From contig CM026428.1 of assembly GCA_014871385.1 (NCBI GenBank), forward strand, positions 11,310,815 through 11,374,814: DNA of 64,000 nt, written 5' to 3'. Shown here piece by piece: positions 1 to 41,446 of the stretch. This DNA is from Ceratodon purpureus (taxonomy: Eukaryota > Streptophyta > Bryopsida > Pseudoditrichales > Ditrichaceae). How positions within the stretch are numbered: position 1 is the stretch's first letter; each line of letters opens with the position of its first letter. The notes under the pieces were generated by a model. The model worked only from the letters and a program-made list of their open reading frames with translations, made no database searches and was not told where the DNA came from. Made by a program: the position numbers and the translations under genes.

Positions 1-165
1 AAATAGACCTACTTCAGAAAGATGCGTGAGAGGCGCACACCTGGTTCGGTAAATAATCTTGTGCGTGTGCTTAATTCATCTGTCATACCGGAGGCCGTCC
101 CTGACGGATCACTTGCTCCGGGAATCGATGTGACGTTGACTACACCAGGGTTCACTGCGACATCT

Positions 166-948
166 TCATTGTTGTCGACTGGAGTGAGTTCCTACGTCTC
201 CTAAGGGGAAATTTTGTTGTGCTCCACCCCATCGCTGGCCGACTCCCGTGGGCATGACGGCATTGATGAGCAGATCTAATTTCTGGTTCACGGTTGCCAT
301 GTCCACCTTGTACTGCGACATGTGCGCGTCGACGCCCTCGCGCCAAGACAAGATACCGTCCACTGATTTCTTTAGAGCCGTTAGCTCTCTGCCGATTGAT
401 CTCGCTGCACTGTCGTTCCTAGGAACCCTGGGCAGATTACCAAGAACGTGGCTGGGAGTGCCTCTCTCTTCCGGGTTGTCCTGCTCGTGCAAGTGTCAGA
501 GGAAATACATACTCCCAATCAGAGCTTGCGTTTATTACAAACCTGACGGATCGACTCAGTGGCTAAGTTTGCCGCCGTCACTACTGTGAAAACAGGTGTA
601 CCGAATCTCAATTTACTGATTACATGACTTCTTACACATCAAATTTTTGGCGCATTGTTACCTGACATGAAGAGTCTCCCTCTTTGGAAGCAGGTGTACT
701 GGAACCACCCCTCTGCAACGACCAAAAGCGAAAACATGTACTTCACTTAATTTTGCGTTCTAGAACGGCCGCTGAGTTCTAACTCGACGGGAGAATGTAT
801 TTCACAATCAATGGATAAAAAAATGGTCTTACATTGAATTCAGGATCGTCTCTTCCGATCGAGTCTGTCAAGTCCACGCAGGGGATCGAGTTCTCGCTGT
901 AGTCGCTGTCGTCCCAAATTAAGTTTTCATCATCTTCATCGACGAGGG
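166..948 (-). CDS. Possible 3' exons of the leftward TNPA-like gene
   Basis: Two open stretches on the - strand look like continuing exons of the leftward gene. The first (948 to 833) is bounded by a CAG acceptor and a GTAAGA donor and encodes a strongly acidic segment with Asp/Glu/Ser runs. The second (492 to about 166) encodes about 108 residues with a heptad-like helix around the segment MSQYKVDMATVNQKLDLL, the sort of coiled coil often seen at the C terminus of CACTA TNPA proteins. How these exons join the Transposase_24-like exons upstream is not resolved. They could also belong to a separate small gene. Confidence 0.35.
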
Positions 949-1640
949 CTGCACAAGCTCTCGCGGTGGTCAGGTAATTTATATTCGAAATATCATAAGT
1001 ACTGAATGTAGAAATTCGCGGCCTTAAAGCTCCAGTGAACCCATGGAAGATCCTCATTCAGAAATGAAAGATTCGTCGTTACTATCCTCAGATTGTGCGT
1101 GCATGATCCCCTCCACGTGCAAACTCCCTCTTCGTCCGAGAGAAGAATCTCCCATGGTTAAGGGGAAAAAAATGGAAAAAACTTCACTGACTTACGAGCT
1201 GAACTGTGCAACTCTACTCTGCCTTGTCACTATTTAAAATTGAAAATAAGTGGGGAATACCAGTCGGTGAGGTGGGATAACGAGGAGAGAGGTTCACTGT
1301 GGGGATGAAAAACAATAGGGTGAGAGAGGAGGTTAGCGTGGACGCGGGGAGAACAGGTGAAACATATAGGAGTAACTGCAGAGTAGGCTGCCTCTCCAAC
1401 TCGGAAGTGGAGGTGAGGCAAAAAAAGGTGGGGATTCTCTCTGATGAATAGGTGTTTCGATGGAGGAACAACACGCGGCCAAGACATTACTGTCCATCTT
1501 TTTCCAATCATCACGGGATTTCAAGCAGAAGATGTCCATTACTGAAATCAAAGACATCTGTGCAAAGCATTGAAGAACGAAGTCTCTACCAAACTTCAAT
1601 GAAAGTTCACCAGTAAATGAGGGTTAGAAAATACTCTTAC

Positions 1641-3034
1641 ATCCCACGCATCGTCAATTGCAATATTACTGTGGTCCTTCCTCTCGAGGAGTAGTCTCTT
1701 CTTCTCTTTCGCTGCGTTACGGGCCTCCTTCATGCGCTTACTCTCTTCCTCGGCCTCGGCAGATTTCCAATACTTAACAAGGGCTGGAAAATACTTCTGG
1801 GGACACCACTTATGCTTCTCCCCGCGTCCTGTTTTAACCCAATGTTTACGCCATAAATACCGTGATGTACGTAAGGAGTTTTCTATAAACCACATGATAT
1901 ATCCGCTCGCAAGGGTGGGTTGAATACAAATCTGCGATCGATGTCTTCTACTACCACTTTGATGTCAGAGTCCGGATGGTCTCTGAAATGTATAGTGGAC
2001 ATTTTCAGAAACCTTCGGGCAGATGCCCTGAATTGCCGGTGGACGAATGGTCGGACGTCCTTCGGAATTCCTCCCTCTGCAGTGCATTGGATCGTCATGG
2101 GCCACTGCTGAGATTTCTCTATAAAAGAAGCTTTCCGGGCTCGTTGAGCTCTTCTCTGAGCTGTCCTCTTGGATTCTTCGTACCGAATGCCCTGGTCCTC
2201 CTCTCTCGTCACGTCCACTGGATTGTGAGGTACGATGGGCAATGCTTCGAACACCACCTGCTGCTGGCTAACATTTGGGGAGGTCATGTCCGGAGGTGGG
2301 AAGTCGAATGGAGATAGCACTGAGGCACCACGCCATCCAGGCCAAGGGACGGTACTGCCTGGGAGATATGGGGCTTGCGGTATTGGCGGAAGGTCGGAGT
2401 GATTGCTGTTATGCATCCTGGAGTCGGATCCCTCAGTGCGAGCTGTGTGACCGCTACCCTGGCCCTTACTTCCACTAGCGGTGTCTTTGCTCGCACTCCC
2501 ATCTCCGCCACGGGACCTCGGCAGCTGGCTGGAAATAGGAGAGCTTAGAGAATGTGATTGACTGGAGTTCTGCTGAATAGCGCGACTGTGACTTAGCGAT
2601 AGTCGTCGGTAATTCTCCATGGCGCCCGTGGGAGCAAATTGGGACATGGAGTTGCGGACGTGAGGCACGGGAACTGAATTGTTCTGGAGTGATGGATGCT
2701 GACATCCTTGGTAAAGATATTGCAACTGCGAAGAAGAGTCAATCGAAGGAGGAACTGCCCCGGAGTACATCATCTGCGACGCCCACGGGTGCAAGTACGG
2801 AGGTCGTTGAGGGTAATTTGAGTTCACTGGCATCTGTCCCGAGGATGTACTCTTCAAGTTCAAGACCCCGATAACATTGTTTTAGAATCAGGTATATAAA
2901 AATGTAAATGCAGCTGCGACGTGCTTATCCACCACGGACTGAGAAAAATGAACTTAGGACGGATCTGATATACTAATGCGTAAGTGTGTTACCTGTGTCG
3001 GGATGTTCGATTGACCGGAGGAAGTGGACGTCAT
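1641..3034 (-). CDS. Transposase_24 / TNPA-like CACTA protein
   Basis: This is probably the DNA-binding accessory protein of the CACTA element. Exon 1 (3,034 to 2,993) begins with ATG, encodes MTSTSSGQSNIPTQ and ends at a GTAACA donor. Exon 2 starts about 2,847 and repeats the STSSGQ motif, then runs through a low-complexity Ser/Gln/Pro/His region of about 200 residues. A basic segment with RRAQRARKASF follows, then a conserved-looking domain (HRQFRASARRFLKM). The next frame (1,895 to 1,641) contains MWFIENSLRTSRYLWRKHW and YFPALVKYWKSAEAEEESKR, typical of plant Transposase_24 (Ptta/En/Spm) domains, followed by a charged helix, and ends at a GTAAGA donor. The two main frames meet near 1,890 without an obvious intron, so there is either a frameshift or an unrecognised short intron. 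Downstream exons are uncertain. Confidence 0.55.
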
Positions 3035-3399
3035 TTTCTGGGAAAGATGTGGAGGTCCGAAATGTTGAGCTCCACCAGAGGATGATAACACCGGGATAAA
3101 ATTCTGTTAGCCATAACAAACCCCACTGTACAAGGTTAATTCAATGACACGTGAAATAGAAAGTGGAAACGAAAATGAGGAATTCCACAACAGAAAAGTA
3201 TAGAACATATACAACGTGACAATGAGCCAATATCGGTGGAAGTGTCACACTATGCAGTGCGACATATGATTATCGAAATACAATGGGCATAACCCGGTAC
3301 AGGGAGGAGGACAGGATCAAACTCCGAAATCCACTAAGATGATTACGACAATGACGTTAGCCGCAGCCGCTCTTGCCTCTCATTCTACAGAATGTGTAT

Positions 3400-3951
3400 C
3401 TATTCCTCATCGTCAGTGCCGCTTGTGGACCTCTCTTCGTCCCAGTCCCAATCTGCGTTAGCCCAGTCCGGGTCGGATTCGGAGTCTGTGTCATGGAACG
3501 GATTTTCCCCTGTTGCGGCAACAACCCGATGATCACCCTGAATCCACGCTTCTAATCCTAAAGGCCACTCCTTGCTACCTTCAGCGTATACCATCCACCC
3601 GACGCACACGCATCTAATATGACACAACATTCTGAATTTATCGACTGGTGTTTCTCCATTCATTAGCAATGGCCATATTTTGTCCTTCACTATCTCTCGG
3701 GGCAGGGAGTCCAAGAAAGTCTCCGCGGGGACATGAGCGGGATCGCAATCCGACTCTGGGCCACTACGAGGGCGCTTCCAATCCATCACCCACGGTTTCA
3801 CCGGCATGCGATGTCTCTTCAGGTACCTGTCCAAGCGGAAGATGGCTAACTCGACTACATCTAACATGGTGTGGTGTAAGCCTCCCGGTCCTTCGGCAAT
3901 CCTTCTTGCGGACATGCGGCTCGGTGACGGTACTCGTGAGTCCATCGCCAT
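3400..3951 (-). CDS. F-box-like acidic protein carried by the CACTA element
   Basis: This is a single open frame of 183 residues from a good ATG to a TAG stop. Residues 1-75 are basic to neutral. At about residues 80-130 there is an F-box-like helical stretch with SLPREIVKDKIWPLL and, about 15 residues later, IRCVCVGWMVYAEGSKEW, resembling the LPxEI...VCxxW spacing of F-box domains. The last 40 residues are very acidic, with repeated Asp/Glu/Trp/Ser. F-box proteins recruit substrates to SCF ubiquitin ligases; whether this one binds SKP1 cannot be told by eye. It lies head-to-head with the rightward transposase side of the element, across a telo-box-containing intergenic stretch. It is not a standard CACTA gene, so it may be captured host sequence. 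The F-box identification is tentative. Confidence 0.5.
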   Translation of the reverse strand: MAMDSRVPSPSRMSARRIAEGPGGLHHTMLDVVELAIFRLDRYLKRHRMPVKPWVMDWKRPRSGPESDCDPAHVPAETFLDSLPREIVKDKIWPLLMNGETPVDKFRMLCHIRCVCVGWMVYAEGSKEWPLGLEAWIQGDHRVVAATGENPFHDTDSESDPDWANADWDWDEERSTSGTDDEE

Positions 3952-4627
3952 TAAACGGCGGGTTGGGGATCTCCGTGCGCGACTTAACAGATGGAACAGT
4001 GTCCAAAAGAAACAGAGAATCTAACGAAACAAACGAGTGCAGACAACGAACATTGGGTTAGGGAGTGGACCTGAGGTTGGAAGAGAGCGCAGCAATGCGA
4101 TTGACAGAGGCCGATTAAATGTCTCTCAATAACATTGTGACACAGTTGAGAACCCCAGGGGCAGCCGCCGTCGACGTGAGCCATGGGCGACGACATCTCA
4201 TCCCTAAACCCTAGAGCCTTGCAAGAAAGTGGAAATCCCCCCCGATGAGTAAGACAAGAGCGCCCACAACTCTCCCGATCACGGCGCTCTGAACCATTAC
4301 TGCTGCTGGTCTGCAAATCAGATAAAAACGGGACGGTATGCTAAATATCACCATACTGTCCGCCATCGTGGTGCATGTGGTGGAGAGTGGGAACTCCGTC
4401 TCAGAGGAGGTATCTTCAGCATCATAGCTATCCTAGGTTTAATGGTGGAAGTCCTCACTCATGGACGTCGTGGATGGGTTTCCGAAGTGACGCCGTGTCG
4501 ATGATTACTAGAAACTAACCAATATACCCGGTTGTTTACCTGACAAGGCCGACCAGGTACAAACCGAACTTCCCCACTTAGAAATAGATAATATAGATCA
4601 AAAGCAGCTTTCGCGAGAATCCCTCAG
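3952..4627. promoter_or_regulatory. Divergent intergenic region with telo-box
   Basis: This 0.68-kb stretch separates leftward and rightward open frames and has no convincing reading frame of its own. It contains the telo-box-like motif AAACCCTAGA at 4,206-4,215. Another, TAGGGTTTA, occurs at 4,934. Such motifs are common near plant transcription starts. Bidirectional promoter function is inferred from position only. Confidence 0.35.
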
Positions 4628-4936
4628 ATGACGGCGCCTATCATTGGTTGGATGGGCCGAGGGTCGGGGATTGAAGGAGCCTCGTCGCTGAAGGTCATCC
4701 TCGGACGATGGCACCAAGAGACTAAGGTACTCTGGTTACGCACTACGGGAGGTTTGGAATGGTCTATAGGTGCATGGGAAGACATAGAATATTTCTATTG
4801 CAACGCTGTTCAGGTGGGGACGTTCCCTTCAAGAGAGCACATGCGTTCCCGCTCACCGATGTACTCTGCTTTCCTTGTTGCGCTGTTGCGTTCCGGAAGA
4901 GTGTACTGCAGACGCACACCCAACACTCCTAATTAG
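4628..4936 (+). CDS. Hypothetical ORF, CACTA leader region
   Basis: This is an open frame of 102 codons from ATG, with a short Trp-rich stretch (GGLEWSIGAWEDIEYFYC). I do not recognise it. It lies between the telo-box region and the next rightward ORF and may be a leader exon of the transposase transcript or not coding at all. Confidence 0.2.
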   Translation: MTAPIIGWMGRGSGIEGASSLKVILGRWHQETKVLWLRTTGGLEWSIGAWEDIEYFYCNAVQVGTFPSREHMRSRSPMYSAFLVALLRSGRVYCRRTPNTPN

Positions 4937-5016
4937 GGTTTACAGAGTAACGGACAATTTCTGAGGTGCTTACTCTGATCGTGGTGTGGTTGAAGTGGAT
5001 AGAGAGTACTGAGAGG

Positions 5017-5505
5017 ATGCATCGAGAGGATTTGGAATATAGCTCTGATTACGGAACAGATTCGTTACGCGTTGACCGATTTGGTGGGGCACCAAGTCTG
5101 TTAGAGAGCGCAATCCGGGTGTATGAGTTAGGAGTGCTCGGTCCTCGTCACGTCTGCATTGAGTTCTGCGATTGCAGTTCGTGTAGGAAACTTAGGTGGT
5201 TTAATAATCCGAAATGCAACTGCGCTCTCGGGAAAATGTGGGGAAAGTATTTCACCTTGGATGGAGCGATGCGGGTGAAGTGGTTGCGTTGCAGGTGCAA
5301 TACACTCTCGTCATTGGCGACGTCGGCCTCTCTATTCTGCAAGTGTCTTTTACTACTCCCTACGCAGGAATACAATCCGTCGGAAGGTAGTACACGTCCC
5401 GAAGAATACGAAGAGCCTTCTGCAGAAGTCTCTAGCTCTGATTTTCCAGCGGACTTGGTTCGGATTGAATTCGACGGCTTGGAGGAGGTGTATCGCCTTG
5501 GATAG
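5017..5505 (+). CDS. Cysteine-rich hypothetical protein upstream of the transposase
   Basis: This is an open frame of 162 residues from ATG 5,017, with an upstream in-frame extension that lacks a better start. After an acidic N terminus there is a cysteine cluster (CIEFCDCSSC, then CNCALG, CRCN and CKC), giving about ten cysteines within 75 residues and suggesting metal binding or disulphides. The C-terminal 40 residues are acidic with Glu/Ser runs. It ends 248 bp before the first recognised transposase exon. It does not match a family I can name. It could be a separate small gene or an alternative 5' exon of the TNPD transcript. Confidence 0.35.
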   Translation: MHREDLEYSSDYGTDSLRVDRFGGAPSLLESAIRVYELGVLGPRHVCIEFCDCSSCRKLRWFNNPKCNCALGKMWGKYFTLDGAMRVKWLRCRCNTLSSLATSASLFCKCLLLLPTQEYNPSEGSTRPEEYEEPSAEVSSSDFPADLVRIEFDGLEEVYRLG

Positions 5506-5753
5506 GACCAATGCTGGTCAGAATAGTTCTGCACAGAAAAGGGGATTTCGCTCAGACGCTTACATTTGTTGGGTTTGCGAGGTGAAGCATTTAGGTATGC
5601 TGCCATTCCTTGACCCGTTGGGCACCAATTGTGATTAAGGAGTTTTCGGTGGGTAGAAAGTGCTTAATTACGTAGTTACCGTGATGTACATGGCTGTTCA
5701 TTGACAGTGCGTGAGTCTGAAGAACCGCTGTCGTCGTTCTTCATGTTCTTAGA

Positions 5754-8700
5754 ATGGAAGAGGGCATTCGAAGGAATCCACCGGGGGAGGCTCGCATCCT
5801 GTCTCGGAGAGCGAAATTACTCAGGCGGGAGTTGGCGTACGCGAGGCGGATGAGTTGGACGAAACTGCCATGTCCATGTCAAATCCACATGCGGGAGGCG
5901 GAACTCACTCTCGACTCATACCGGAGATGCCTGAGGGATAATGGAAGGCATGTGTGGTTCTATGGAAGGACAGAGGTATGTCTCATATTTTCCTTCGTGT
6001 GTTGATGTGGTGCTCATATGTAAGATTAACCACGACAACTCAGGAACTCGAATTCTGAAAATTCACTTAGAGCCTTCACCTTCCATGCACAGTAGAAGAA
6101 CACAATACCGATTGGTTGATGCTATGAATTGGGATATCGCATGTCATGAAGCACCTCCTGCCTAACAGTCGAAGATGTTCTGTTGTACCAGGGATACGAG
6201 GACGACGACTCCGACGTCGAGTGGGAGGACCACATTACGTGGTACTATGGAGCGCAGGCGAGAATGCGTCCAAACGCACTACGGCGGAGGGATTTAGACC
6301 CGGGGATTGATGTGACGCAGATGGTAGTCGAAGCTCATGATATCGTGGACAGAATTCATGAAGAGGTGATGGTGGACCAGGTTCATGCTGGAGAGCATCC
6401 GAGAGGAGATCCGCACCAACAGAGATTTCCGAATGGAGTCAGCGACGACTTAGGGCAGGAGAACAGAGCATCACCCGTAGGAGCAGGTCGGGGTGGGGGG
6501 ATTCCTAGTCCGGAGAGAAGCAGTGACTCGGCAATCCCCTTACGCGAGGAAGGTAATGCAGCAGGTGAAGACGGCCGTGACATCTCCGATGCACCGTCAG
6601 TCGACGTTTCTGATGATAGCTCTGGAGACGAGGGGGCGCACCAGTGGGGAGACTCTGACGACGAGACAGACGCTTCCATCGCGGCCCTAGAGGAGGCAGC
6701 GACTACTCCCTTGTTCCCAGGATCAGAATACTCTAGCATGGGAACGACGTATGTGCTTCTAAGTAGTGGAAAGCTGCACGGCTGTTCCGACGTCTACCTG
6801 GATGAGCTATTCCGGACCTTAAGCACTACCATTCTTCCTAAGCCGAATACCTTACCCAAGACTTACAGAGAGGCATCCGAGTACTTGAGGAAGTTGGGCC
6901 ACACTTACAAGTCAATCGACTCCTGCCCCAACAATTGTTGCCTGTATCGGAAGGACCTGAAGGACGCTCGTGTTTGTCCACATTGCAGGGCTCCGAGAAA
7001 AAGAAGAGCAGGGAGATCAGAAGTGCCGTTCAAGGTTACGAGGGCCTTCCCTCTTACTCCGCGACTCAAACGGATGTTTCGAAGTGCTCTTCAGGCAGCT
7101 GCAATGACATGGTGGGCGACCCTCGCAGTCACGGACGGTGTGATGTCTCATGTCTCTCACTCAGCGCAATGGAAGTGGATCTCGGAGAGATTTCATGCAG
7201 AGTTTGGCCATGACGATAGAAACGTGCGAATGGCTCTTGTTACAGATGGATTCAACCCCCACGCAGACAAGAGGAGTACTTACTCTATATGGCCTATTCT
7301 CCTCATGAACTACAACATTGCACCGTGGCTTACGACGAAGAATTATTTTATTATGTTGGGGATCCTAATCCCGGGTCCTAAATCCGTAACAGCTGATTAC
7401 TTCGATATCTATATGGAGCCACTGATTGAAGAACTCTTACATCTTTGGGAAGAAGGGGTGTACTGCATGGATGTCGCCCGTTATAAGGAGTCGTCTCATT
7501 TCATATTGAAGGCGATGATCATCTGGACAATTGGCGACTTCCCAGCCTACGGCGTTTTAGCTGGTTGCACAACCAATGGGTTCGTTGGCTGCCCAGTGTG
7601 CGGGGAGGGCTTTAGATCACGGCGTTCTAAGGTTTTACACAAGAACGTCTTCTGTGGATGTGCCCGCAGGTTCCTTGTTAGGGCAGACCATCCCTTCAGG
7701 GGCGACAGTTCAAACTTCATAGATGAGGAGCACCGAGTGGCCCCTACTCCCGTTACCGGAAGTGAAGCATTGCAGAGGGGAGAGGAGCGTGTCAGGTGGC
7801 TTAGAGAGTATGGAAGACCGAAGGAAAATGACCCCGTCAGAAGGCACGGCATCAAGCGAGTTTCCTCACTATATAGGCTTCCTTACTGGAAGGTAAGAGT
7901 GCCACTGAGCCGCCCCTGATCCTTGTTTACAGTCTGCACATGTTGTCTTCGACGTCTCGATATTGTGTGGCTCCAGTGGCTTCATGTCATGATCACTTGG
8001 GACTCTATGTCTAGACGTCGGGGTGATGTAGCTGTCTTAACATATGTCATTGAAGTTTAGCCCAGCCTTTTTTTTCGGTGTCGATAAACTTGCTGGTGAA
8101 TGGGGTTCGAACTACCAGGCTCTGTCCACCGGGACTTCTAACCATTCATTTAGCGTATGTTGTTCTCTTAGATAGCGTATAATGACTGCTGGAATTGGAT
8201 TATATGATCATGCTGTTCGACGACATGAATTGCACATGTCGATGCTCACCTGCGCATGATCTGGTACTGTGTGACCAGATGAATATGTAGCAGACTATGT
8301 TTCTCGGTGCAATGGTCAGTCGTGCTTGCTGATCCCCCATTCTTATATTTTCAGCTGAAGTCTCACAACTTTCTTCATGGTGCTGTGAATAGGAACTTCC
8401 AGTTAGGCACACACTCGACGTCATGCATGTGGAAAAGAATATAGCGGTTACAATTACTGGATTTTTACTCGGTGAAGAAGACACGATAGCCGTGCGAAAG
8501 GACCTACAGGATCAAGGGGTCATGCCTAGTCTGCATCTTGTGCGGGATGAGTTAACCGATAGCTACCTGATGCCGCAGGCACCCTACGTTCTTAGCCCCG
8601 GTGAGAAACGACGAGTCCTACAGACGATCAAGAATGTTCAAACACCGACTGGTCACTGTTCGAACTTGTCGAAGGTAGTTAACTTGGATAAAGGGAAGTT

Positions 8701-10434
8701 CCAGTTCATGAAAAGCCACGACTGGCATGTTGTTCTAGAGGAGGTGTTACCTGCCGCCTTGAGAGGGTCGCTCGCAGATGGACCTCGGGTAGCTGTTATT
8801 CGACTAGGGCACTGCTTCAAGAAGATTTGCGAGAAACAAGTAACCGTGAGTGAGCTCCCGAACTTATTGAACTACATTGCCGAAACTTGCTCTCTGCTGG
8901 AGATATACTTCCCACTGGCGTATTGGAATATAATGCCCCATCTCGTACTTCACTTGCCAAGGGAGCTTTACTGGTGCGGGCCCGTTCATGCCCGCTGGAT
9001 GTATAGCGTGGAAAGGTACTTAGGTCACTTGAAGAGCCTCGTGCGTAATAAGGCCAGACCCGAAGGATCCATTGCCCAGGGTTATATGTATACGGAAGCC
9101 ATCGGATTCGTCACAGAGCATTTCCAAATGTATCCAGGAGTTGCGAGACTACTCTGGGACATGGAAGAAGACGAACAGGACGCAGGGGAGGTGATGGAGG
9201 GGCAGGGTCGTGAGCAATTCTGGGACGACATTGAATTGAAGAAACTTCACGAACATGTTTTGCGTCACTGCGTCCACACGGAGGACCTCTATAGGTATGC
9301 TACCCTCATGCGTACTGTTTGGGTCAGTGTCATCGCATTGGTGACTAAATAAAGAGTGCTCTAACTGTTATTAAAACGAGTACGTAGAGTACTGTTTAAC
9401 TCTACAGCCGTTTCTGTTGCAGTATTTTCTCAGAGGAAAGAAGATCGCTTAGGGGTCGCAATCCAAGGAGACTCGTTCCATTCGCAGACTGGATCGAAGA
9501 GAGAGTGCGTCAAATGGGAATCGATGGTCATAACCCCTCTCCAGATCTGGTGACTATGTCCAGACTTCCGTCTCCGTACGTAAAGCATCATAACTCGATG
9601 TGGGCTTTCGGCTACCACTTCAGAACTGACGAAGAGGACGGGAAACAACACGTAACCTTCGACGCTGGAGTGGCAGCCATCATAAACCAAACCTGCCGTT
9701 CTTCAGTGTCGGATGTGAACCAAATTGAGTCGGAGCTCCTTTATGTAGGAATTATTAAGGACATACTGCGCGTTGACTACGGACATTTGAAGTTCAACGT
9801 ATTGAGGTGTTCATGGATCAAGCCTGATCTCGCAGGGGAGCCGACAATCAAAGTAGACCAAGACGGTTTTTGGCTCGTAAAACACGCTGCTCGACAGAGT
9901 GCAGACGTCGAGCCGTATCTCATGGCCGCACATGCCCGTCAGGTCAGTTAATCGACGCAATTCCCTTTCATTCGTACAGTCTCCCAATGTTTGCATTCCG
10001 GTCTAAGCTGAACCTCTGAATTGCATCATGAGCATCGTATCACTTATCACAGTCGTCATTATGGACTACCCAATGCCGAACAGGTTTATTTTGTCGATGA
10101 TCCATACAATGAAGAATGGAAGGTTGTGAGGTACAAGGAGCCGAGATCACGGCGGGTCACTGATGGGCTACCAGACGCTTCTCTTAGCGCACCAGGTCGG
10201 ACCACTGCCACCGAGCTTAACATTGCTAGAGGACAAGGCGAGGCTGCAGCTGAGCCTCAGAGGCAGCCAGTACTAGAGGCCGACGTGGTGCATGTCATGG
10301 CACACGAAGAGGTCGACGAAGAAGCAGCTTACATGCAAACGGACCACATCCATTCCGATTCAGAGGACGACATCCCCAACGACGAGGCAGCAGTTCCAGT
10401 GATTCCCGTACCTAATGCGATTGACGATGCATAA
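5754..10434 (+). CDS. CACTA TNPD-type transposase (multi-exon)
   Basis: This is the catalytic transposase of the element. Exon 1 (5,754-5,975, ending at a GTATGT donor) encodes the Transpos_assoc-like zinc segment, with LPCPCQIHMREAELTLDSYR and then a WFYGRTE end. The large exon (about 6,169-7,892, donor GTAAGA) has an acidic linker, then the Transposase_21 core: LVTDGFNPHADKRSTYSIWP, PGPKSVTADYFDIYMEPLIE, GDFPAYGVLAGC and a CPVCGEGF cysteine knuckle. The Asp residues in LVTDGF and GDFPAYG are candidates for the catalytic acidic residues. The next exon (from about 8,405) has LDVMHVEKNIAV and the DUF4218 region (WCGPVHARWMYSVERYLGHL). The final exons (about 9,425-9,941 and about 10,090-10,434) carry DUF4216 features (GIIKDILRVDYGHLKFNVL, VYFVDDPYNEEWKVV) and an acidic tail. 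Phases do not close perfectly at two junctions, so small exons are probably missed. Confidence 0.85.
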
Positions 10435-11793
10435 CTCTAACGAGTTTGAAATGCCATCAGCCCTTCACGCAGAGCTTGAACTCGGTGTTACTACGGCATT
10501 CCCTAAGACATTGGTACGTCAATTCAGCGAATGAATCCTTCATTACAGTCTCTCACAGCATTCTGCAAACTGATCAGTTGAGGTTACTCTCTGAGGTCAG
10601 TAACTGAATAACTCCCCAAAAGTTTTTCCGCAACCTCTATATTCTAGGTTCTGTTCAGAGAAATACCGTGTGCTTCTCTGGCCATGGGGCATCAGTAGGT
10701 CCACGGTTTAGTATATCCACATCCCTCTTAGGTAATATGTTCACACGTCCAAACTGAGTCAGAGGCTCGTCCCATGTACTGACTTGTCAGAACTTGCTTC
10801 ACGTACGAGCCAAGGTTCTGACGGAGGACGGTCATGTCACCAGCACCGGACACTGAGTAGGCGGAGCCTCTTTCACCTGTCACAAAATCTTAGCCTGTTT
10901 GTCTATTCAGGAAGTCCATCTAATCAATCATAATCCAGAGGACGAGTACATACGCATGTCAGTTCCAGCCGTTTCGAGTCCATTCCATCAAAGTAGGCGT
11001 AGGTCATGCCGTCATGGGGCACTGAAGTAGACATGAGTAGAACGCATAGCATCCCATCAGCGAGGCGGCTCCTTCTAGTTTCACATGTCATTATTCTGTC
11101 ACCTCTGGGCTGTAATTAGCAGCAGTCTGCCTCGCTGTATCGTCAATGAGTGGAAGGTGTTGTGGAGAATTGACAGGTTAGTGACACAATGACCATCGTG
11201 GCGTATCCACACCCGTCACGCATTGGATTTCAGCATCATATTATGACAGGGAGCAATAGATGTGAGGTGACTACCAGCCCCAATCAATTGTCGGCTGTCT
11301 TCTAGAACCCTAATTTCCTCAGAATAAAGCGAGTCGCCTGAGAGATGGAGAGGCGGATGCTCCTCAATGCTTCCATCGCACAGGTGGGCGGAGCCTCCAG
11401 AGTGCGAACCCGTCGACTGATGCTTTCTGGCGTCTGTGTGCTAATCCACTCCTTCCCCGGTGCGTGCGAAGCAGAATCACGGGCTTCATTACTGAACCAG
11501 GTACGCGCTTCCATCTATGATATTATGTTCCGAATAGTATTTCCATGTGCTTGTACCATGCTGACTTCTCCATATCTTGTCGACGGTCCAGACGCCCTTC
11601 TCCTCCATATTGTGTGTGTTTGAATGACTCGTAACCATTTCATCCTCCGAATTTGTTGGGTTCTCGTTCCTCTTTGCTGGAGTTGTGTAGTTAGTGCGCC
11701 TTTTTTTATTTACAATGGAATAGAATTTAACCCTTGCTGTCTCGGCTATGGAAGACTTAATCAATATGATGTCTTCTGTATGTCTTCGCAGAC
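10435..11793. other. Non-coding spacer between the two rightward CACTA genes
   Basis: No convincing coding frame was seen. A telo-box-like AACCCTAA occurs near 11,306, about 490 bp before the next rightward start codon, so the promoter and 5' leader of the second gene may lie here. I see no repeats or hairpins of note. Confidence 0.4.
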
Positions 11794-13950
11794 ATGGCCA
11801 TCGACAGCCATGACATTCCACGGAACCCTCATCGGGGATCGCCACGATGGTTTTTCGTGGACAAGAAACTGAATAACTACGGATACTTGCCGGGAGCCCC
11901 GAGACGCGACCGGGACGCACTTCCAGACATAGTCGTGAACGAGGAGAAGTGTGCGAAGCGATGGGGACCAAAGCAACACGGCAAATTCTGGTACGCGCGG
12001 CCAGGTTCGAGCGAGAGTCCGAGAATGATACAGAGGATTGAGAGTCTGTACGAGGTTACCCACCAGCGCCCAATGGGGAAGCAGCGCTGCATTGGACTCG
12101 CCTTTGCACGGGGACTGATTGCAGAGAAGCTCGGGCACGCAGTGGATTGGGCCTCCTTTGCCGCCAAGCAGTGTCAGCGGGGGGGGCGTCCGTTCATATC
12201 CTTAGAAGAGCTGAGAAGCAAAACAAGACGGGAGTCCGGTTGGTGGCCACGGATTGAGGCGTCGGAGCTGAACGCGAATGACTTGGAGGGGGCTCCGGAT
12301 GACTGGGAGGTTAATAGGCATCCTCGGCAGATGAACATGAGGCTCATCAACGGCTACGACTTGAAGGATGCCTTGCCAACGAGGCCGGACACCGTCGTCT
12401 CCCCACCACTGTACGGGCGAGTGGTTCATATCGGAGGTCAGCCCCCCTACCGTTTCCCTTCAAGTACCTTGAATATGAATTCTACTCCGCTACTCTGACA
12501 TGAAATTACATTGTTCTGTACTGAAATAGATGCTGGCTGTTTGTACATAGTGTCGTCGCATGCAGACAGTGATACTGCAAGCTCTGGGAGTGACTCGTCG
12601 GAGAAGATAGTTAATAACCACGGTGAGTCTCCTGTCATCCATTATGTACGCTGATGTTCAATCCAGTGTTAGTTAAATAATCCTACAATTGGAGGACATT
12701 GTGCTTGGTGGAATCCACTACGTCTGCCAATCATTAGAATGTATCGAGGCGTGTGGTCCAATTCGTGCAGGTACAGCTCCACTCTCGGTTGAAGAGGTCC
12801 AATCCGCGGAAGTACCACCTATTGCAACACAAGGATCACCAATCGTAGAAGGAGGCAACGAGTGGGACAGCTGCCCCGTGTCACCAGGACCAGGTACTAT
12901 TATGTACTCCAGAAATAGCCTCGGTTTAGCTTGTTAGTAGATTTGAAGATATAACACTTAAGTGTTTAGTCGAATAGAAGCACTTTTTAACTTGCTAATG
13001 GGTGGCCGTCAGCAGTTTCTCCTGTCGGTGGTCGCCAGGTTGGACGATCCACATCGGACTCTGATTACGAGCCGTCCGACAGGCATAGGACTGAAACGAG
13101 TATCCACCCATCCGCCGGCGTGGAGCGCGACCTCGAGGACATTGTTAGCGATGAGGATGTCCTCGGAGTAGACATCTCCGACCGTGTTCACGCCGAATGT
13201 GAGTTTTCAAGAGTTCCCCTGTCATTGTCTCATCCTGAAATTGTAGTCGAGAAGTGAGACACCTAAACCTTACTGAACCTATTCGACTTCAGAACCACAA
13301 CCCGTCTTGATTTTTTTTTTAATCTCATGCGACGACGTGGGCTTACTGTACCTCTGAATTTTGCAGTGGATCACTGGGCCGTGGAGGCTGGATTCTACAC
13401 AATCGAACCCGAAGCACAGTTGACCTTCCTCCAAGAGAAGGAGACGGAGTTCAAGAGAGAGTCGAAGAAGCGGAAGGCGGAGGAGGAGGCACAGGAAGGG
13501 TGGCTTACGAAGATGAGATGGAAAACAATTGACATGGCTTTTCCACCTGAGGGGAATGAGGCGTCGCAGGTGCCGGATTGCAACATCGTAGTGGACAAGT
13601 ATGTGGCGGATTCCAACGTTTCTGTGAAGTTCTCACCGCTGAGGTTCCAGCGACGTCCACTATTACTCCCTCGCGGTGAGCGATCTATCACCTTTCACTT
13701 ACATAAGGATAATCTCTACTGCTGAGTTGCTTACGTACTCATGAATATATATAACGTATCACTTTTTGTGAGTGCTGATAGTCGTAGCCATGTCTCCTGT
13801 AACAGCAGTTACACTTATAGAATATCTCTGTACTACGTGTGTGAATTTGACGCAGAGGTTGCGGCTTCTGGTTCGGGATCGGGAGATTACGATGCGAATG
13901 TTGGAAGGAATATGGGGAGCATCAATATCGGGGACACCGATAGCGACTGA
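11794..13950 (+). CDS. Unknown acidic multi-exon protein, second rightward gene of the CACTA element
   Basis: Exon 1 begins at ATG 11,794 and is open to about 12,437. It encodes about 215 residues, including a Trp/Arg-rich region (PRWFFVDKKLNNYGYLPG, GPKQHGKFWYARPG) and a helix near MGKQRCIGLAFARG. Later exon candidates, flanked by GT/AG sites, encode Ser/Asp-rich acidic segments (12,529-12,623 with SDTASSGSDSSEKI; about 13,041-13,199 with SDSDYEPSDRHR). A lysine/glutamate coiled coil (about 13,366-13,675, FLQEKETEFKRESKKRKAEE) follows, and then a glycine/aspartate C terminus ending DTDSD at 13,950. I recognise no domain. Its place downstream of TNPD is where the second CACTA gene usually sits, so it may be the TNPA equivalent, or cargo, given that a Transposase_24-like gene lies on the other side. 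Exact exon joins are not resolved. Confidence 0.45.
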
Positions 13951-14823
13951 TGTGTTCAGAATTGGAGGGCTTCAGTAATAGTATGAGTACTGGGGGGTTT
14001 TGGTCTGTACATAAATCATTTTGATGCACATCCGGACGGGCTGATATAGAGCTTTAAAATGAACTTGACGACTGCCGGAGAGTTAGTGTGATCGTAAAGT
14101 AGGTGTGATCGGAAATTAGGTGTGAGCTTAACATTTTCTTTGAACTCACTCGGGTATCATGTGCGTGATTGCACCGGACTGAGCGTATCCGCTATGTGGT
14201 GCACTCGTTACATACTTCTATAATGGATAATTGAATTTCGTTTCTATCTTCGTATTACTACAGGCCCATGAATTCCACTGCTTTTTCTGTGAAATGGCGT
14301 GCTTGTCATGTACTGGACTGGATGTGGTCGTTCAAAGTATTAGGAAAAAAATTGCATCCCTCAGACGTCTATTTGAATCTAAGTGACGACGCGGTACAAC
14401 TACCGTAATGTGGATCAACAGTAATATCATCAGGAAAAAAAGCGTACTGTACACATTGAGGTCATTCTCCCACATGAAGCACCGGGCATCAACCGGCACC
14501 CGAGTCACCCCAACGAGGACGACCTCGAAATCGTGGGACCTAAAATTCCCGGCGTCTTGGACCAGTAATCTCGTAGCTATGTCGAGGGAGGGTCGTAATT
14601 CATACGTGGCTCGCGCTTGCTTATTACCCTGTCCGAGGTGGTTCCACCCAGGATAAATCCAGTACCATCGCGCATCCTGATTCGATGTTCAGCCTTCCAA
14701 GGAGTGGCCCACACCGCCCACACCGGCGACCACGCAGGGAAAGACAGAAACCGCCGGAGGAGCGCCTAAGCCGCGACCCAGCCCTTACAGTCCGGAGTGA
14801 GAAACGACCACTTCGCTAGTAGT
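13951..14823. other. Right subterminal region of the CACTA element
   Basis: No coding frame was seen. Short motifs recur, for example GTGATCG...AGTAGGTGTGATCGG near 14,088-14,112, as expected of CACTA subterminal regions that bind the accessory protein. The region ends at TAGTG (14,820-14,824), followed by TTG and the interrupted D27 intron. Confidence 0.5.
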
Positions 14824-14863
14824 GTTGATGCTCTTAAAAGTCAGCTAGTTTGACATGCAATAC

Positions 14864-16020
14864 CTGCATTTTTTAATGAGCACTCCACTTTTCTGCATTA
14901 CTCCATTGACCTCCACTTCTTTTACCTGCATATTTCCAACAGCATTAATCCATGGCTACCTGTTTATTTCTCTAGAGTTCAAAAGGTTCACGAAGATTTA
15001 ACTCAAAAGAAAATCGGTTTTGAGCCAATTGTGCAGCTGAACCTGATTGTGTTGGCATACCTCACATGGCCCCACCAGCCATTCAGCGTAGAGAGTCGCT
15101 GCTGCAAACGTCTCGGCAGTTTTTTGATTATTGGGGACAAATCTTCTTACCTGCGCAGAAAACAGAGTCAGCGCAAATCGATACCGTCTCCACGAATTTA
15201 TTCAGCAGTGTGTCACAGCTATAAATTATTCCTCCATGACAAGTTGTAAGAGCACCTTCCCACAGTAAAGTAATGTGCAGCGCAAACTTAGAACTAGTCA
15301 ATTCTGTAACTCGTGCAAAGATGTAATCACTTCTTGCAGGAAATTGATTCGAGAGCATATAAGGTAAATCTGAAAAGGTATAAATTCCGTTACAATTTTT
15401 AGAAGCCAAGGGGGAACGGCGGAGTGGAGCATTCGCATAGACGACGCACGCTGCAACAGGGGGCTCCGAGATTGCATCACCTTTCGTGTGACCTCGACAA
15501 ACCCGTCGTATCCCTTCACAGTTGTGGACATTCCTGCGAATTCATTTGAGTCACCCAATTATTCATGCTCAGATTCACTAATCACACACCTCCCTGCTGT
15601 ACAAAATAGGCAATGATGCGCAGTAACAACTCCTCTAAATACTCGTGAGAATTTCCTGTTATTTTGATGCATTTACCAACTTTGTAGATATTTGAACAGA
15701 GATGACTCCTGATTTGTGGAATAATTTTTTTATTATGTTTCTACTAGGGTACCTGTGAATTTGCCTAAGCGACGTACGCAGAGGCGTAGAATGAAATTCT
15801 CCATCCAGGAATCTTTGTAAACAGTTTTCTGGCCCATGGGCGCCGGCTTCCCCGACGGCTCCGCCATCCTGCACCGAGGATTAACCACGGTCACCCCATG
15901 GCCAGGCAGACTCACACGCTGAGGTGCAGCAGGCTGCTTATGCAGCTTCAGATTGCACGGTGCAACAGGGCTGATCCTCATCGCCCCACCGCCCTGGATC
16001 GCTTCCAGCTGCTGCATCAT
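14864..16020 (-). CDS. D27-like: D27-like beta-carotene isomerase, exons 1-4, interrupted by a CACTA element
   Basis: D27 proteins are plastid iron-dependent carotenoid isomerases; DWARF27 makes 9-cis-beta-carotene for strigolactone synthesis and its paralogues have broader roles. Exons: 16,020-15,753, 15,533-15,394, 15,150-15,061 and 14,925-14,864, all with GT-AG borders and compatible phases. They give 186 codons plus two bases. Family signatures are KTVYKDSW in exon 1, VKGYDGFVEVTRKVM at about residues 95-109, YAEWLVGPCE at about 157-166 and VKEVEVNGV...SGVLIKKC at 167-186. The family's Cys-rich C-terminal part (CVGMCVN-like) should follow but is absent. Intron 4 begins at 14,863 and meets the CACTA end at 14,824. 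The N terminus starts MMQQLEAIQ and has no clear transit peptide; an upstream leader exon is possible. Function of the split gene is unknown. Confidence 0.8.
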
Positions 16021-17222
16021 CTCGTCCAATTTGCAGGTATAATATTATCACACCCTGATCCACAACGCAGATTTAATCCTCTCCCAATTCAGCACCATAC
16101 CATATACAACTTGTAATTAACTCATCATCCAAAGTCATCAACAAAACAATTCTCTACTTCACATCTTCAGGTCAAAAGCTCATCTCGAGAACCCTCAGGA
16201 ACTACAATTCAATCAAAACTCCTAAATCATAAACCACTGTCCACCAACAAAACTCATCACAAGAATACTCCTCCAACAATCCTGCGATCGAAATCAGGAA
16301 AAATTCACCAGTAGCTCCCGGAATTTAAAACCACTGCTATATCACAACCGATGAAAAAAACCCCCAATTACCAACTCTCCTCCACAGATAGCAAGTTAAA
16401 TATTCCAGCTCCATAACCACTACCTAAACTTCCAAAACTCCACAACCTCCACAAAATCCACCCCAGTCATGCCACAAAAAACCGATCTGATCGATCCCAA
16501 AAACACTTCACACGATCGACAACAGTGATCATCGATCAGACTCACTTATGAGTACCAGGCAGACTCCACCAGCAGGTGAAAGAGCGTGGTCGAGAACAGG
16601 GCAGACACGGGGCTGTCGAGAGCATCCGAACACGCACATCGTGCCGGAAGCGGCCCATAAATCGGGGTGCGAAGAGAGGAGCAATGGCGATGGTGGTTGC
16701 TTGCACTCCAGTGCACGGCGCCAGGGCAGTTGCTGGTTCGGAAGCGTAGACGGCTCCGGATCTGTTTGCACGGCCGCGATGCTTCATGGCCCCACGTAGA
16801 GGCGATCTGCGCCGTCGGATGCGTCACGTCACATGGAATGGCGTGTTGTACGATCCCAGGACTAGTTTAAGTATTTGTGGGAGTCTTTGGGCTATTTATT
16901 GGGCTAGTGTGTAGGTTTTGGGAGAGTGTTGAGTGTTGGGGTTGAGGTTAATTTGTCTATGCAGATGTGTGACTTTCCACCTCTTTGGTGTCCAGGTGTT
17001 GTCCGATGTTGTCATGGGCTTGTCATGGGCAGTGAAGTAATGTTCACTTGTTTAAGTCCAGAGTGCACAGTCCCGGAGTTACTTGGAATTACTCCATTCA
17101 TAGATAAAAACTAGCTTGACTACTTATGGATTTGGAAAAGAGATCCGAGAGAGGTGTAGAGATCCGAGAGAGGTGTGGAGCTCTCACAAAAATAGGGTTA
17201 GAGATGAGCACATGCAACCAAT
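16021..17222. other. D27 5' region
   Basis: On the - strand a GC-rich segment (16,870-16,546) ends at a good GTGAGT donor (16,545). It could be a non-coding leader exon of the D27-like gene, since none of its three frames joins in phase with the first coding exon. Between 16,050 and 16,540 the sequence is A/C-rich with nothing recognisable. A 19-20 bp direct duplication (GAGATCCGAGAGAGGTGT) lies at 17,139-17,179. Confidence 0.35.
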
Positions 17223-17469
17223 AACCATCATATTCATTAATTGGGAATTTAGTCCAATTTTTGAAACTTCTCAAAATTTCTTATATTATTTCTAAAAATT
17301 ATTTTATTCATGTTTTTGTGTATAAAAACATATAGTGCGTATTTAAAATAACGTCCAAAAATAATATAATAGATACAAACTTCACTTATTTGGGAAAAAG
17401 ACTATAACTCATGTAAAAACTACTGTCACTTGGAACCATGGAAATTCCCAAATTAATGAATATGGTGTT
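17223..17469. mobile_element. MITE-like foldback element, 247 bp
   Basis: There are 28-bp imperfect terminal inverted repeats: 17,223-17,250 (starts AACCATCATATTCATTAA) and 17,442-17,469 (reverse complement starts AACACCATATTCATTAAT). The interior of about 190 bp is AT-rich and non-coding. I could not see a clear target-site duplication, so the superfamily is not assigned. Confidence 0.5.
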
Positions 17470-20288
17470 CAATTTAGATACCCGTACCCACGGTTTAATC
17501 CAGTAAGCTCATAGCGTAGATATTTTGTTGGATTGAATAAATTAAAGATTTATAATTTTAAGGGATGACGTTTATTGGTGTTTGGAGGAAAAAATTTATT
17601 TTTCTTGGTGCATTGGTTTTGAGCATATATGAATTACGAAGAAAGAAGATTATTTTATGAGTTTTTACACTTTATTTCATATTGAAGTGAATTTTGTAAA
17701 ATTTATGAGATTTTAATTTAAAGTTTTTCTTGAAATAATTGATTGAGGTATAAAAGAATGTTATGAAATTCACCACTACTAAAGTATTACATTTCAACTT
17801 GATGCATTAAATTTTGAAATTTGAAATTACCAGATTTAAAGATTATACAAAATTATTTGTGATAGCAATGATACATCCAACAACATGAATGTAATATGAA
17901 TTCATGATCTACAATTTCAATTTATATACCAACTTAAAAGTTGTACTCCTTCTAGTTGTGGTATATTCTATAATGGATCTTTGCAATTCTATAGAGAAAG
18001 ATATGATGTTTTAAAGGTTAATGCATAGAGAAAATGTTATTATCTAGAATGTGTGTTGTTTTACTTTTGGAGCTTAGTGAGATTATATAGGTTGAAACTT
18101 TGATTTTATTATAAAAAGTTCATTGTAGATTGCTCTTATATAAAAATTCATGATTCAAATATGAAAGTTTACAAATATAATCATTTCATCTATTAAGTAT
18201 TTGATTTTTTTTTAAATTATGATTGTCAATTATGCAAAACAACACTTTCATATTTTTCTTTCTTATCAAAGATAACATTGATACACCATCAAATTCTAAA
18301 GGTGTTGTATCATATTAGAAATGAGTTTGCTCCATGTCTCATTGCGATATTAGTTGCTTGTATTCATTTATTTGCTTGTATTATCTAATAAATGACACAC
18401 ATCACATATTGTTTTGCACAAATGGTGAATCCACCATCAAACGCAATCAAGGCTTTCAACATTTGCCTTATACATCTATCTACATGAATGTGTCTCGGCA
18501 AAGTAAACAATTTTGCGCCTAATCCATCCAAGCAAGGGCATATTTTGTGAGATGAACATCCAGCCTTCATCAAAGACGGAGATGAAACCTTGACCTTCTT
18601 TCTCATTGAAGGTCACGGCCGATATTTCTCTTTTGAAGTACAAAACTTTGAGTATAGCATTCCTTTGTGGGTTAAGAACTTAAGAAGTGTATGGATGAGT
18701 ACTCTGACAATCGCAATAGTAATGAGTTGCGCCTAAATGATAAGGACTATTATTCTAAGATTGAGAAGTCAATAAAACAAGTTGAAAGTGGAGAGGATGC
18801 CATTAATTTTCTTCCTAGCCCCAGTATTCCTGTCATTGTTCTTTGTGATGATGACTCCACCTTGCTAAAGTAGTTTTTCATGCTAAAAACAATATCCCTT
18901 GTCACATACTTCATCATAGACATTTTCACCCCTTATACTTATTTGTTGATCAATTCAAATAGAGTTTTTCCAAGATCAAAGTTCTCAGAGCCAATAAGGC
19001 TCCAAATGGATTCTAGATACTCACCTTTCAATTTTATAAATTTTGTTATATATTAATCAAGTGTAGTTTTTTTTTATACAATCTTGAAACTCCATCAAAC
19101 GAGCATCTTGTATAAAATACTTGACCCACTTCTTAAAGCTTCTTAATTATAGGCATTTATTACAGCGCTTCAATTCTCTTGTAGATCATTGAGTGTCTTT
19201 GAAATTTAACTAGGAATTTATCAATTACATAGTATATTATTTCTTTTATGGAGAATAAGACCTTAATTCAACCATTAATATATTTTGGTTCTAAAGTAGT
19301 CTAAGTTATAATGTTAAATTGTGAGTAACTGAGGCCTATTTAAATTAATGTTGACTCTTTTCCAAAAACTATAACTTTTGCATTTTGACTTGAATTTCTT
19401 CAAAATTTCAAATACAATTTTATTGGTAGAACATGATTAAATATAACTCAAATATAAGTTATAATTTAAACGCTTAATTTAGCAACACTAATGATTATCT
19501 TTATTAATTTTAAAGCCATTAGGTTTTTTGCGAGCTTATTCAATAGTGCAAACCACTAGCATTTCAAACGTTACCAACTCAAATACATTTCTATGACCCA
19601 TTAAATTTTCAACCAATATATAAAGAATAAACATTGTCTATACTTATAAACAATTGTAATTTCAACTAATTACAGTATTATATTTCAAATGATTTCTTTT
19701 GAAATTTTCTTTAAAGATGAAGATTTGCCAATATTTTGAAAAAATATATAATTATATTTTCTATCAAATATCAAGAAAAAAATGATGTTTTAAAAATTTG
19801 TCTTTTTATAATTTTAACAAGTTAAGTAATATTAATTACATTCATCTACAACCTAAAATATTTTATTTACATAGATTTATTACACAAAAATAGGTGATTA
19901 AAATTAAATTGCAAAAATAAACTATAATACAAACATATTTTACTTCAAAAGGATTTTAAAATTTCTATTTTCATTAAATAACGTAAAAGTTTTATTTTGT
20001 TTCAAAAAATAAAAGTGAAATAAAAAACAAATTTGGTATGGGAAGCAACGGAATGAAAATAAGTGGTAAGAACTAATATTAGTGGATGGATGGTAGAAAT
20101 GAATGGCGTGGCTTAAGAAAGAAGCAAATTTGTAGATGTATTGTCTATTGGTTGTAAGTGGGGATAGAAATGGCTCAACAAGAAGAAAACTTAATAAGTG
20201 ATAAGAAGTATCATTATGGCTTAAAAGAATAAAAAATAAAAATGATGATGAAGGCCACAAGTTGTGGGATTGGTGAGTGTTTTGATAG
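17470..20288. other. AT-rich intergenic DNA
   Basis: This is about 2.8 kb of very AT-rich sequence without a convincing gene. A slightly less AT-rich island at 18,400-18,880 has short open frames but no domain I can recognise; it may be decayed repeat. A stretch of about 50 bp at 20,175-20,226 recurs in similar form at 24,990-25,045, so the two flank the LTR-like and LINE block in direct orientation. Confidence 0.4.
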
Positions 20289-20907: not shown

Positions 20908-21699
20908 GTATAGGTCTCACGGTAAATTCGTAGGGCGTGGATGAAGTCCGGTATGGCACGTCCGTGACAGATAGTGGCATGTGGGCATTGTTGGGCAATT
21001 ATTAATAGATTGTTGGTCCATGTGTATTTCTTGTACAATATCTTCAGGGCTAGTTAGAATATTATTTTGTATGCCAATGATGGAATCTAGAGCTGAAGTT
21101 TCAGAGTTTTTGAAGACTTTCCTATTTATTTTCTTGGGGCTTTTTTCATACACTTGGCGGTATTTTGAGACTCCTTTACAAATGCAGTCTTTAGTATATC
21201 TCGTTGTAATTTTTCTGGCTTATTTATTGGCGGATTTAGTAATGATAGCTATGACGTCAATCCATTCATTTGATATGGTGTCTATTATTGGTGAGTAGGG
21301 GATTTACACATTTTGGTGATTGTGTATTTCATCGAGGATAGGGTATATTTGCCATTGTGGGTCATTCTTTACAATATATATAGTTTTTCTGATGAGGTGG
21401 TATGTAGCAAGGTATTTTTTCCATTTTTTGGCAAGTTTTCGGAGTAAAAAATCACCTTGTTGTGCGGTTCTATTTGTGAGATTTGGTAATGGAGGTGCTT
21501 TACAGGTTTTTTTAATGGTCTTTGAGATTTTGTCTACAATTTCGTCTAGGGATGTACAAGCTATTTCCCGGTGGTCGTGTGTGAAGTGGTCGTGGTTTTT
21601 TAATAATAGGGTTAATTCATTTATTCTTGTAGAATTTCCTTTAAAGAATTCTATATGAAATTTTTCTAAGTTTTCTTGTAGAATCGGATTAAGTATTTA

Positions 21700-22538
21700 A
21701 TTTTGAGTAATATTTATTGAGAGTGGTGGTCTAGCTATTAGCATATTTGAGGGATGTGTAATGTGACTGGGTAGTGATCTGAGTTTAGATTCATATTTAT
21801 GTTTGTAGTGGAGGTGAATCTGCTAGTGTCTGGTGAATTTATATAAAAGCCGTCTATTAGGCTGACAGATGTATAATAATAGCCACCTTATCTAGAGAAA
21901 TTAATGTTCGTTGGGATATATTTGAAGTTGAGAGATGTGGTGAAGTTTTTCTAGTGAGTGTCTTCTTTTTGTCGTGGTATGTGAATATTGTAGTTTTGTC
22001 GTCCAATAAGTGCAATGTCGCGGCTAAAATCACTACATAAGATGTATATGTGGTTTAGATGTGCAACAATTTGGTTAGTGATTGTAGTTTCAGGTGGGCA
22101 ATGAGACGTATATCTTCTAAGTGTGTAGGTACATACATATATATAATTAGCTAGGGCAATTATGAGAATTTTATTAATGTTACTGAGAGATGCATATTTA
22201 TTGTGAATAAGTGTGAGTAGGCTTCCTCTTCGGATAGTGTAGGGCATTCTTTGTTGTATGCATCTTGTGAGAGCATGGGTATTGTTAAAGATGAATTTGT
22301 ATTCGGGAAATAGATTTTGTATGTATTTTGTAGACTTCGTTGCTGTGAGTTTAGTTTCTTGAATATTTATAATTGCTGTATTTGTAATGGAGTTATTTAT
22401 TAAGTTTTGTAGGTTTCGTAAGGCGGTATTAAGTGATGAGGCATTCCAAGTATTTATGTTAGTTTCTTGGTTAGTGGTAATGTCTATTCTTGGTGCTGGT
22501 GTGGGTGCTTGGTACTGGAGGTGGATGTGAGTATTCAT
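21700..22538 (-). pseudogene. LINE ORF2 endonuclease domain, decayed
   Basis: Translation from 22,538 shows endonuclease/exonuclease/phosphatase motifs in order: NTWNASSLNTALRNL, IINIQETKLTATKSTKYIQ, and CSDFSRDIALIGRQN, where the family has DFN and this copy has DFS. Further on, after at least one frame change, the NLNSDHYPVTLHIP motif near 21,770 supplies the catalytic SDH. The altered Asn and the frame changes mean this copy is not active. It would have nicked target DNA for target-primed reverse transcription. Confidence 0.6.
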
Positions 22539-22571
22539 TTATGTTTTCTAAAGAGCAAAGTGATTCTGTTA

Positions 22572-25607: not shown

Positions 25608-25728
25608 GCAGAGCAAAATTTCGGAGCTTAGTCTCTGGGGAAGCATTGCAGTAGAGGTTCAGTTTGCTTGATTTCGTTTTGAATTTGGTGCTGGAGTGGT
25701 TTTTCTCGTTCTTTTGAGGGGTTTGGCG

Positions 25729-41417: not shown

Positions 41418-41436
41418 AGCTGGGGTTTGCGACCAC

Positions 41437-41446
41437 AAACCCTAGA
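41437..41446 (-). promoter_or_regulatory. Telo-box upstream of RPL29
   Basis: TCTAGGGTTT on the gene's strand, 20 bp before the ATG, is the telo-box commonly found in plant ribosomal protein gene leaders. Confidence 0.6.

Follow-up and report, generated by a model that had tools for sequence, protein, structure and literature searches.

A CACTA transposon of the CMC superfamily (En/Spm type), about 17,610 bp in length when the window and contig C125 are joined, was found in intron 4 of a D27-like gene of Ceratodon purpureus, and the filled and the empty allele of this gene were both present in one assembly (362.5 Mb in 151 contigs). The window is the whole stretch of DNA analysed (64,000 nucleotides; C8:11310815-11374814). 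Both states were found at 20 of 30 sites of the same family, the D27-like site included. Ceratodon purpureus is a dioicous moss with a haploid gametophyte. The account that we consider probable, read from the contigs, is that of a recent insertion and of transposition in an isogenic culture, both states of which were assembled; here 'isogenic' refers to the absence of substitutions in the compared stretches, we infer the haploid state of the culture, and mosaicism and allele frequencies would follow from the contigs. The CACTA family is probably very young and still active. With somewhat less confidence, we lean towards a haploid reference culture that is mosaic for ongoing transposition of the 17.6-kb element, two thirds of the sampled insertions, the D27-like one among them, being missing from part of the cells.

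The element and its insertion point

On the window side the element ends in TAGTG at position 14824, 39 bp inside intron 4, the donor of which (GTATTG) starts at 14863; the original prediction had placed the exon 4 donor and the element terminus at exactly these positions, and its coordinates were borne out. The CACTA and TAGTG termini form an inverted repeat, identical at 25 of 29 bases, TTG adjoins both ends of the insertion (a 3-bp target duplication), and the element stands opposite in orientation to the D27-like gene. Since the two termini, the TTG copies flanking them and an empty site were all recovered, the prediction that a CACTA element had inserted into an intron of this gene is supported. 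The transposase domains sit in long open reading frames in the order Transposase_21-DUF4218-DUF4216 (Table 1). With regard to subterminal repeats of the kind that TnpA binds, a repeat search between 12500 and 14900 gave only short two-copy direct-repeat families, and a 17-bp unit is present in 2.4 copies at 14086-14125. A search of a plasmid collection returned no match. The element had also been described as cargo-bearing, a view that was dropped: the domains above threshold were the transposase domains proper to CACTA elements, the 16 element ORFs scanned (part of all ORFs) had no non-transposon domain above threshold, and a MATH match in one of them was sub-threshold (18.3 vs 21.2 bits).

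Table 1. Positions of the element, of the D27-like gene and of its empty allele (window coordinates unless a contig is named), with the sites that have an element-free twin
Feature	Position	Strand	Remarks
CACTA element, right-hand 14.8 kb	1..14824	+	Element positions about 2787-17610; base 1 directly after 10,000 N
Right terminal inverted repeat	14796..14824	-	25/29 bases common with left terminus on C125
Target-site duplication TTG, right copy	14825..14827	.	Left copy C125:20987-20989; single copy in C15 empty site
Transposase_21 (tnp2) ORF	6150..7919	+	PF02992, E 3.3e-58, profile 1-209/213
DUF4218 part of transposase gene	8393..9352	+	PF13960, E 2.5e-28
DUF4216 part, two pieces, probably spliced	9400..10434	+	PF13952, E 7.2e-4 (12-58/73) and 0.012 (53-73/73); both under cut-off
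Possible TnpA-like ORF (Transposase_24, Ptta/En/Spm), weak	1596..1964	-	PF03004, E 0.0038, 17.8 bits vs cut-off 28.7
D27-like exon 1 as counted here	15753..16020	-	Start codon uncertain; upstream exon possible
D27-like exon 2	15394..15533	-	In-frame join
D27-like exon 3	15061..15150	-	In-frame join
D27-like exon 4	14864..14925	-	Donor GT at 14863-14862
Intron 4, first 39 bp	14825..14863	-	Interrupted by insertion; intron 180 bp in empty allele
D27-like 3' exons in empty allele	C15:21572-21678, 21867-21971, 22159-22214		
Sites with element-free twin			L016, L017, L019, L021-L024, L027-L029, L032-L035, L037-L041

The D27-like gene

The four exons of the D27-like gene in the window (minus strand) splice together in frame, and when they are joined with the 3' exons of contig C15, the product covers the whole PF13225 (D27-like_C) profile (1-88/88, E 3.9e-39), so that the spliced product of the empty allele contains the domain with the Cys motif. 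The C15 allele has an open reading frame of 275 amino acids, counted from the Met at 16020, should this be the start codon. By its motif the gene looks D27-LIKE1-like; it is not a proven D27, and a role in the strigolactone pathway, suggested in the original prediction, is putative. Four further PF13225 loci were found in the genome (two on C1, one each on C4 and C3), and the function of the gene may therefore be redundant; its nearest relatives in the genome, a pair arranged in tandem on C1, show 78% over 37 amino acids. A solved-structure search for D27 gave no relevant match. Elsewhere in the window, a Ribosomal_L29 exon lies at 40983-41438 (minus strand), while 25672-26100 (plus strand) weakly resembles the NADH dehydrogenase 20-kDa subunit, with a score under cut-off.

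The filled allele

The Cys-rich exon was absent to the left of exon 4 in the window, as the original prediction had noted, and also in 50 kb of C8 beyond the gap, and the left end of the element was likewise found in neither stretch. The prediction had also allowed for an intron of more than 14.8 kb reaching to the end of the gene on the C8 scaffold; instead, exactly 10,000 N adjoin the window directly on its left. Base 1 of the window is most simply the start of a contig inside the element, and the run of N is more likely an assembly gap, on the basis of its round number and of an overlap with C125. This contig (34,273 bp) reads ...GGTCAC-TTG-CACTACTAGCATACTGG..., with the 3' exons of the D27-like gene on the outer side. 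Its element part is 13,284 bp long, and positions 2787-13284 correspond to window positions 1-10493, where the two differ by 17 one-base indels and by no substitution. The indels were taken for sequencing noise; 6 of the 17 sit in transposase ORFs, and the frame of the copy in the D27-like gene is thus not certain.

The missing Cys-rich exons were located on C125 and also in the empty allele on C15, and the left end with its TTG duplication, the lack of which would have pointed to a rearrangement, is present on C125. A rearrangement that had split an old pseudogene, with a CACTA terminus occurring by chance, would account for the absence of the 3' exons from the part of C8 that was read, but the left end, the TTG duplication and the intact empty allele (C125 and C15) refute it, and we give it practically no weight. 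What makes the gene end appear lost on C8 is primarily a break in the assembly. To call the gene broken would be too simple: the assembly gap cuts its reference model short, and there is an intact allele beside it, which the proposed choice between a giant intron and a broken gene had missed.

The empty allele

The flank of the D27-like insertion matches C15 (130,626 bp) at 100% and is there element-free. At the empty site a single TTG (CAA on the gene strand) is followed by the rest of intron 4, which is 180 bp in total. C15 and the window differ by no substitution over 2,726 bp, 9,706 bp and about 300 bp, the last of these with 3 gaps in a poly-T tract; this comparison of about 12.7 kb leaves out C15:301-8999. 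The start of C15 is offset by about 20 bp relative to window coordinates. C125 and C15 were compared over 1,753 bp and 1,800 bp, with no mismatch. At its other end, C15 runs into a tandem array (C15:115945-130626; units of about 6.3 kb, at least three copies at 100%), which is probably the reason why the contig ends; diverged arrays similar to it are carried by C7 and C6. The far end of C15 was not matched by the 50-kb stretch of C8 fetched beyond the gap, so that the sequence placed next to the window in the scaffold is a putative neighbour.

Copies of the family and their age

The terminal 500 bp of the right end gave 40 matches at 100%, one of them at its own place (best 40 of 75 candidates), and the terminal 500 bp of the left end also gave 40 (best 40 of 72 candidates). 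All 29 other right ends that were fetched begin CACTACTAGCGAAGTGGTCG, each beside a different flank, and the first 20 bases of the terminus are common to 29/29. A generic terminus pattern gave two matches, equal to chance expectation; the terminus in the D27-like gene is not a chance occurrence, because of the 40 perfect matches and the 29 copies that share its start beside different flanks. Both ends were found on one contig in 18 pairs, 15 of which are spaced 17,593-17,622 bp apart (two of them, L017 and L035, with mismatched flanks) and 3 of which are spaced 24.6-26.9 kb apart.

The full 2,000 bp compared matched the window copy in 27 of the 29 right ends; that of L034 runs into N after 1,317 bp, and for L038 the comparison was stopped 1,514 bp in, at a poly-A tract of differing length. 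Summed over the 29 right ends, 56,831 bases were compared with the window copy without a substitution. Using a rate of 9e-9, taken from PMC7466625, the 95% upper bound on the mean age of the copies is about 2,900 years, a rough figure, as copies are related, and one that holds for this sample of best matches only (40 of 75 candidates scored, 30 fetched), from which older copies may be missing.

Filled and empty states at other sites

For each of the other copies fetched (29, in sets of 19 and 10), the outer flank was tested, and the junctions of second copies were read. At 19 of these sites (Table 1) a second place was found with the same flank, one target triplet and no element. The 100-bp flanks scored equally at both places for the 19 sites (for L037 within 2 bits), and the listed flank identities were 99-100%, with 97% at both places for L039. 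Filled and empty states in one assembly would also arise if the DNA had come from a diploid, from pooled sublines or from sibling gametophytes, with two genotypes closely related to each other, the two states then being ordinary inherited alleles. Unrelated genotypes should, however, differ, and the flanks of the D27-like insertion are without substitution over the 12.7 kb compared, while the short flanks of the 19 other sites score alike at both places; sublines of one clone would amount to the same thing as the recent insertion in an isogenic source that we favour. Two genotypes in any other sense appear unlikely. From random unplaced contigs, 14 stretches were taken as a control, of which C105 turned out to be the CACTA element itself and C135 to be all N; the 6 of the 14 that were searched consisted mainly of repeats in several copies, and C46 had a 100% twin on C11. 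Since most of these stretches were repetitive, they do not constitute a clean control for heterozygosity.

A recent segmental duplication, by which one of two D27-like loci would be filled and the other empty, agrees with the identical flanks on C8 and C15. The same pattern at 19 of the 29 other sites would nevertheless have needed a perfect duplication for each, and in 14 of the 19 the element-free twin lies on a small unplaced contig (29-61 kb), so that we assign a very low probability to this reading.

The far side of the insertion was readable at 9 of the 19 sites. In 7 of them (L019, L021, L024, L032, L038, L040 and L041) it is identical to the empty site, as is the far side at the D27-like gene, and in 2 (L017 and L035), which are probably chimeric joins, it differs; because of these mismatched flanks, the assembly must be regarded as unreliable across the element. 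The predicted far side was N at L027, L028, L029 and L033, and six more of the 19 fell outside the comparison. The target triplets match in 14 of the 16 copies with both sides read (the D27-like one included), the exceptions again being L017 and L035; 7 further copies tried for the far-side triplet were N. CACTA elements can excise, and somatic loss of a fixed element from some cells would leave mixed states that look identical in contigs. Excision of CACTA elements usually leaves altered target copies, however, and the 19 twins and C15 each have exactly one target triplet and no footprint; excision is thus highly unlikely as the source of the empty sites, if slightly less so than duplication. 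A recent insertion, polymorphic in one isogenic source, is the simplest explanation, because there are no SNPs and no footprints, and because a duplication would have to be repeated for each site.

At 10 of the 29 sites a clear empty twin was not found. Four candidates were rejected: L026 (flank identity of 98%, likely a paralogue), L044 (a paralogue, its far side being unlike the element-free copy), L045 (an ambiguous inverted-repeat flank with three element-free copies) and L025 (the twin on C111 is filled too). For the other six (L018, L020, L030, L031, L042 and L043), no second copy at 100% was present among the best 40 of 54 candidates, beyond which a twin is possible.

Two arrangements were observed in passing. 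L022 and L023 face each other (C12:13093965-13122257; C36:28782-31348), and their element-free flanks are 2.4 kb apart on C36, for which local transposition is possible. The flank of L045 occurs twice, inverted, about 16 kb apart (C5:4706160-4722145), and C23:4510-20496 has both element-free.

Distribution of insertions and neighbouring repeats

C6 has a length of 110.5 Mb (31% of the genome), the other contigs up to C13 with a size shown being 16-29 Mb and C14 0.15 Mb. Among the best 40 candidates for each end, C6 carries 4 of 39 chromosome-placed right ends (binomial 0.0025) and 3 of 38 left ends (binomial 0.0008). The scarcity of insertions on C6 for its size is taken as a lead. The flank ORFs scanned (n = 4) comprised a protein kinase, an AAA ATPase, one with a weak DUF4216 match and one without a family. 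The weak match (28.0 vs 30.6 bits) belongs to an ORF near the outer flank of L041 (C6:2217290-2220789), and the DUF4216-like ORF is possibly a relic of an older CACTA element. The window itself contains a 1.74-kb repeat at about 20970-22709, with at least 34 full-length copies elsewhere (79-80% identity), and a degenerate minisatellite at 42496-42950 (period about 42 bp, 10.9 copies).

Discussion

In the explanation that we prefer, a 17.6-kb element of the CMC (En/Spm) type would have entered the 180-bp intron 4 at 39 bp from its start, duplicating TTG by the usual transposase reaction. This insertion would be recent and would segregate in the culture from which the DNA was taken, isogenic and probably haploid, the family transposing during vegetative growth of that culture. 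The assembler would then have broken inside the 17.6-kb copies, identical as they are, and would have given each state a contig of its own, and it is because the two states were assembled separately after a break in the element that the reference D27-like gene would look truncated. In filled cells the intron would be about 17.8 kb long, which may lower or abolish correct splicing, and in the other cells the gene would be intact. When the sequence is read from the gene into the window part of the element, the first AATAAA lies 3,115 bp in and an ATTAAA at 1,502, and premature polyadenylation inside the element is possible, judged from these motifs. PMC10856949 names GG1 and R40 as reference strains and gives the main bryophyte phase as haploid.

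If this is true, the reference genome records at least twenty insertion sites as they were before and after the event, and target choice, silencing and fitness cost would be open to direct study in a haploid; a bryophyte would harbour, in this element, a live DNA-transposon mutagen of natural origin, possibly usable as an endogenous tagging tool. A caution follows for genes such as the D27-like one, which can look broken in the reference only through assembly breaks inside the element.

Active CACTA elements are well known in angiosperms. For bryophytes, no report of an active CACTA element was found in the open-access literature searched, an earlier mention in the Ceratodon genome paper being possible. 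The element resembles other members of the CACTA/CMC superfamily (En/Spm, Tam1; tnp2) in its inverted CACTA termini, its 3-bp target duplication and the order of Transposase_21, DUF4218 and DUF4216. It differs from En/Spm and Tam1 in its size of 17.6 kb, in the possible second ORF on the opposite strand and in the 25/29 identity of its terminal inverted repeat, and its family differs in showing filled/empty pairs within one assembly. The interrupted gene shares the PF13225 domain over its whole length with the D27, D27-LIKE1 and D27-LIKE2 family, in which D27, D27L1 and D27L2 are given as separate groups of beta-carotene isomerases in PMC6728956.

Recently mobile elements in a haploid moss have a parallel in the accessions of Physcomitrium patens, where the polymorphisms counted in PMC7466625 were nearly all LTR retrotransposons (PpTc1 making up 1 of 509) and the term 'CACTA' has 0 occurrences in the main text. 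The differences described there are between accessions, whereas the CACTA element of C. purpureus varies inside one assembly. The proposed movement during laboratory propagation would be shared with mPing of rice, for which PMC2715021 describes transposition in tissue culture; mPing, however, is a MITE, whereas the long element described here encodes its own transposase.
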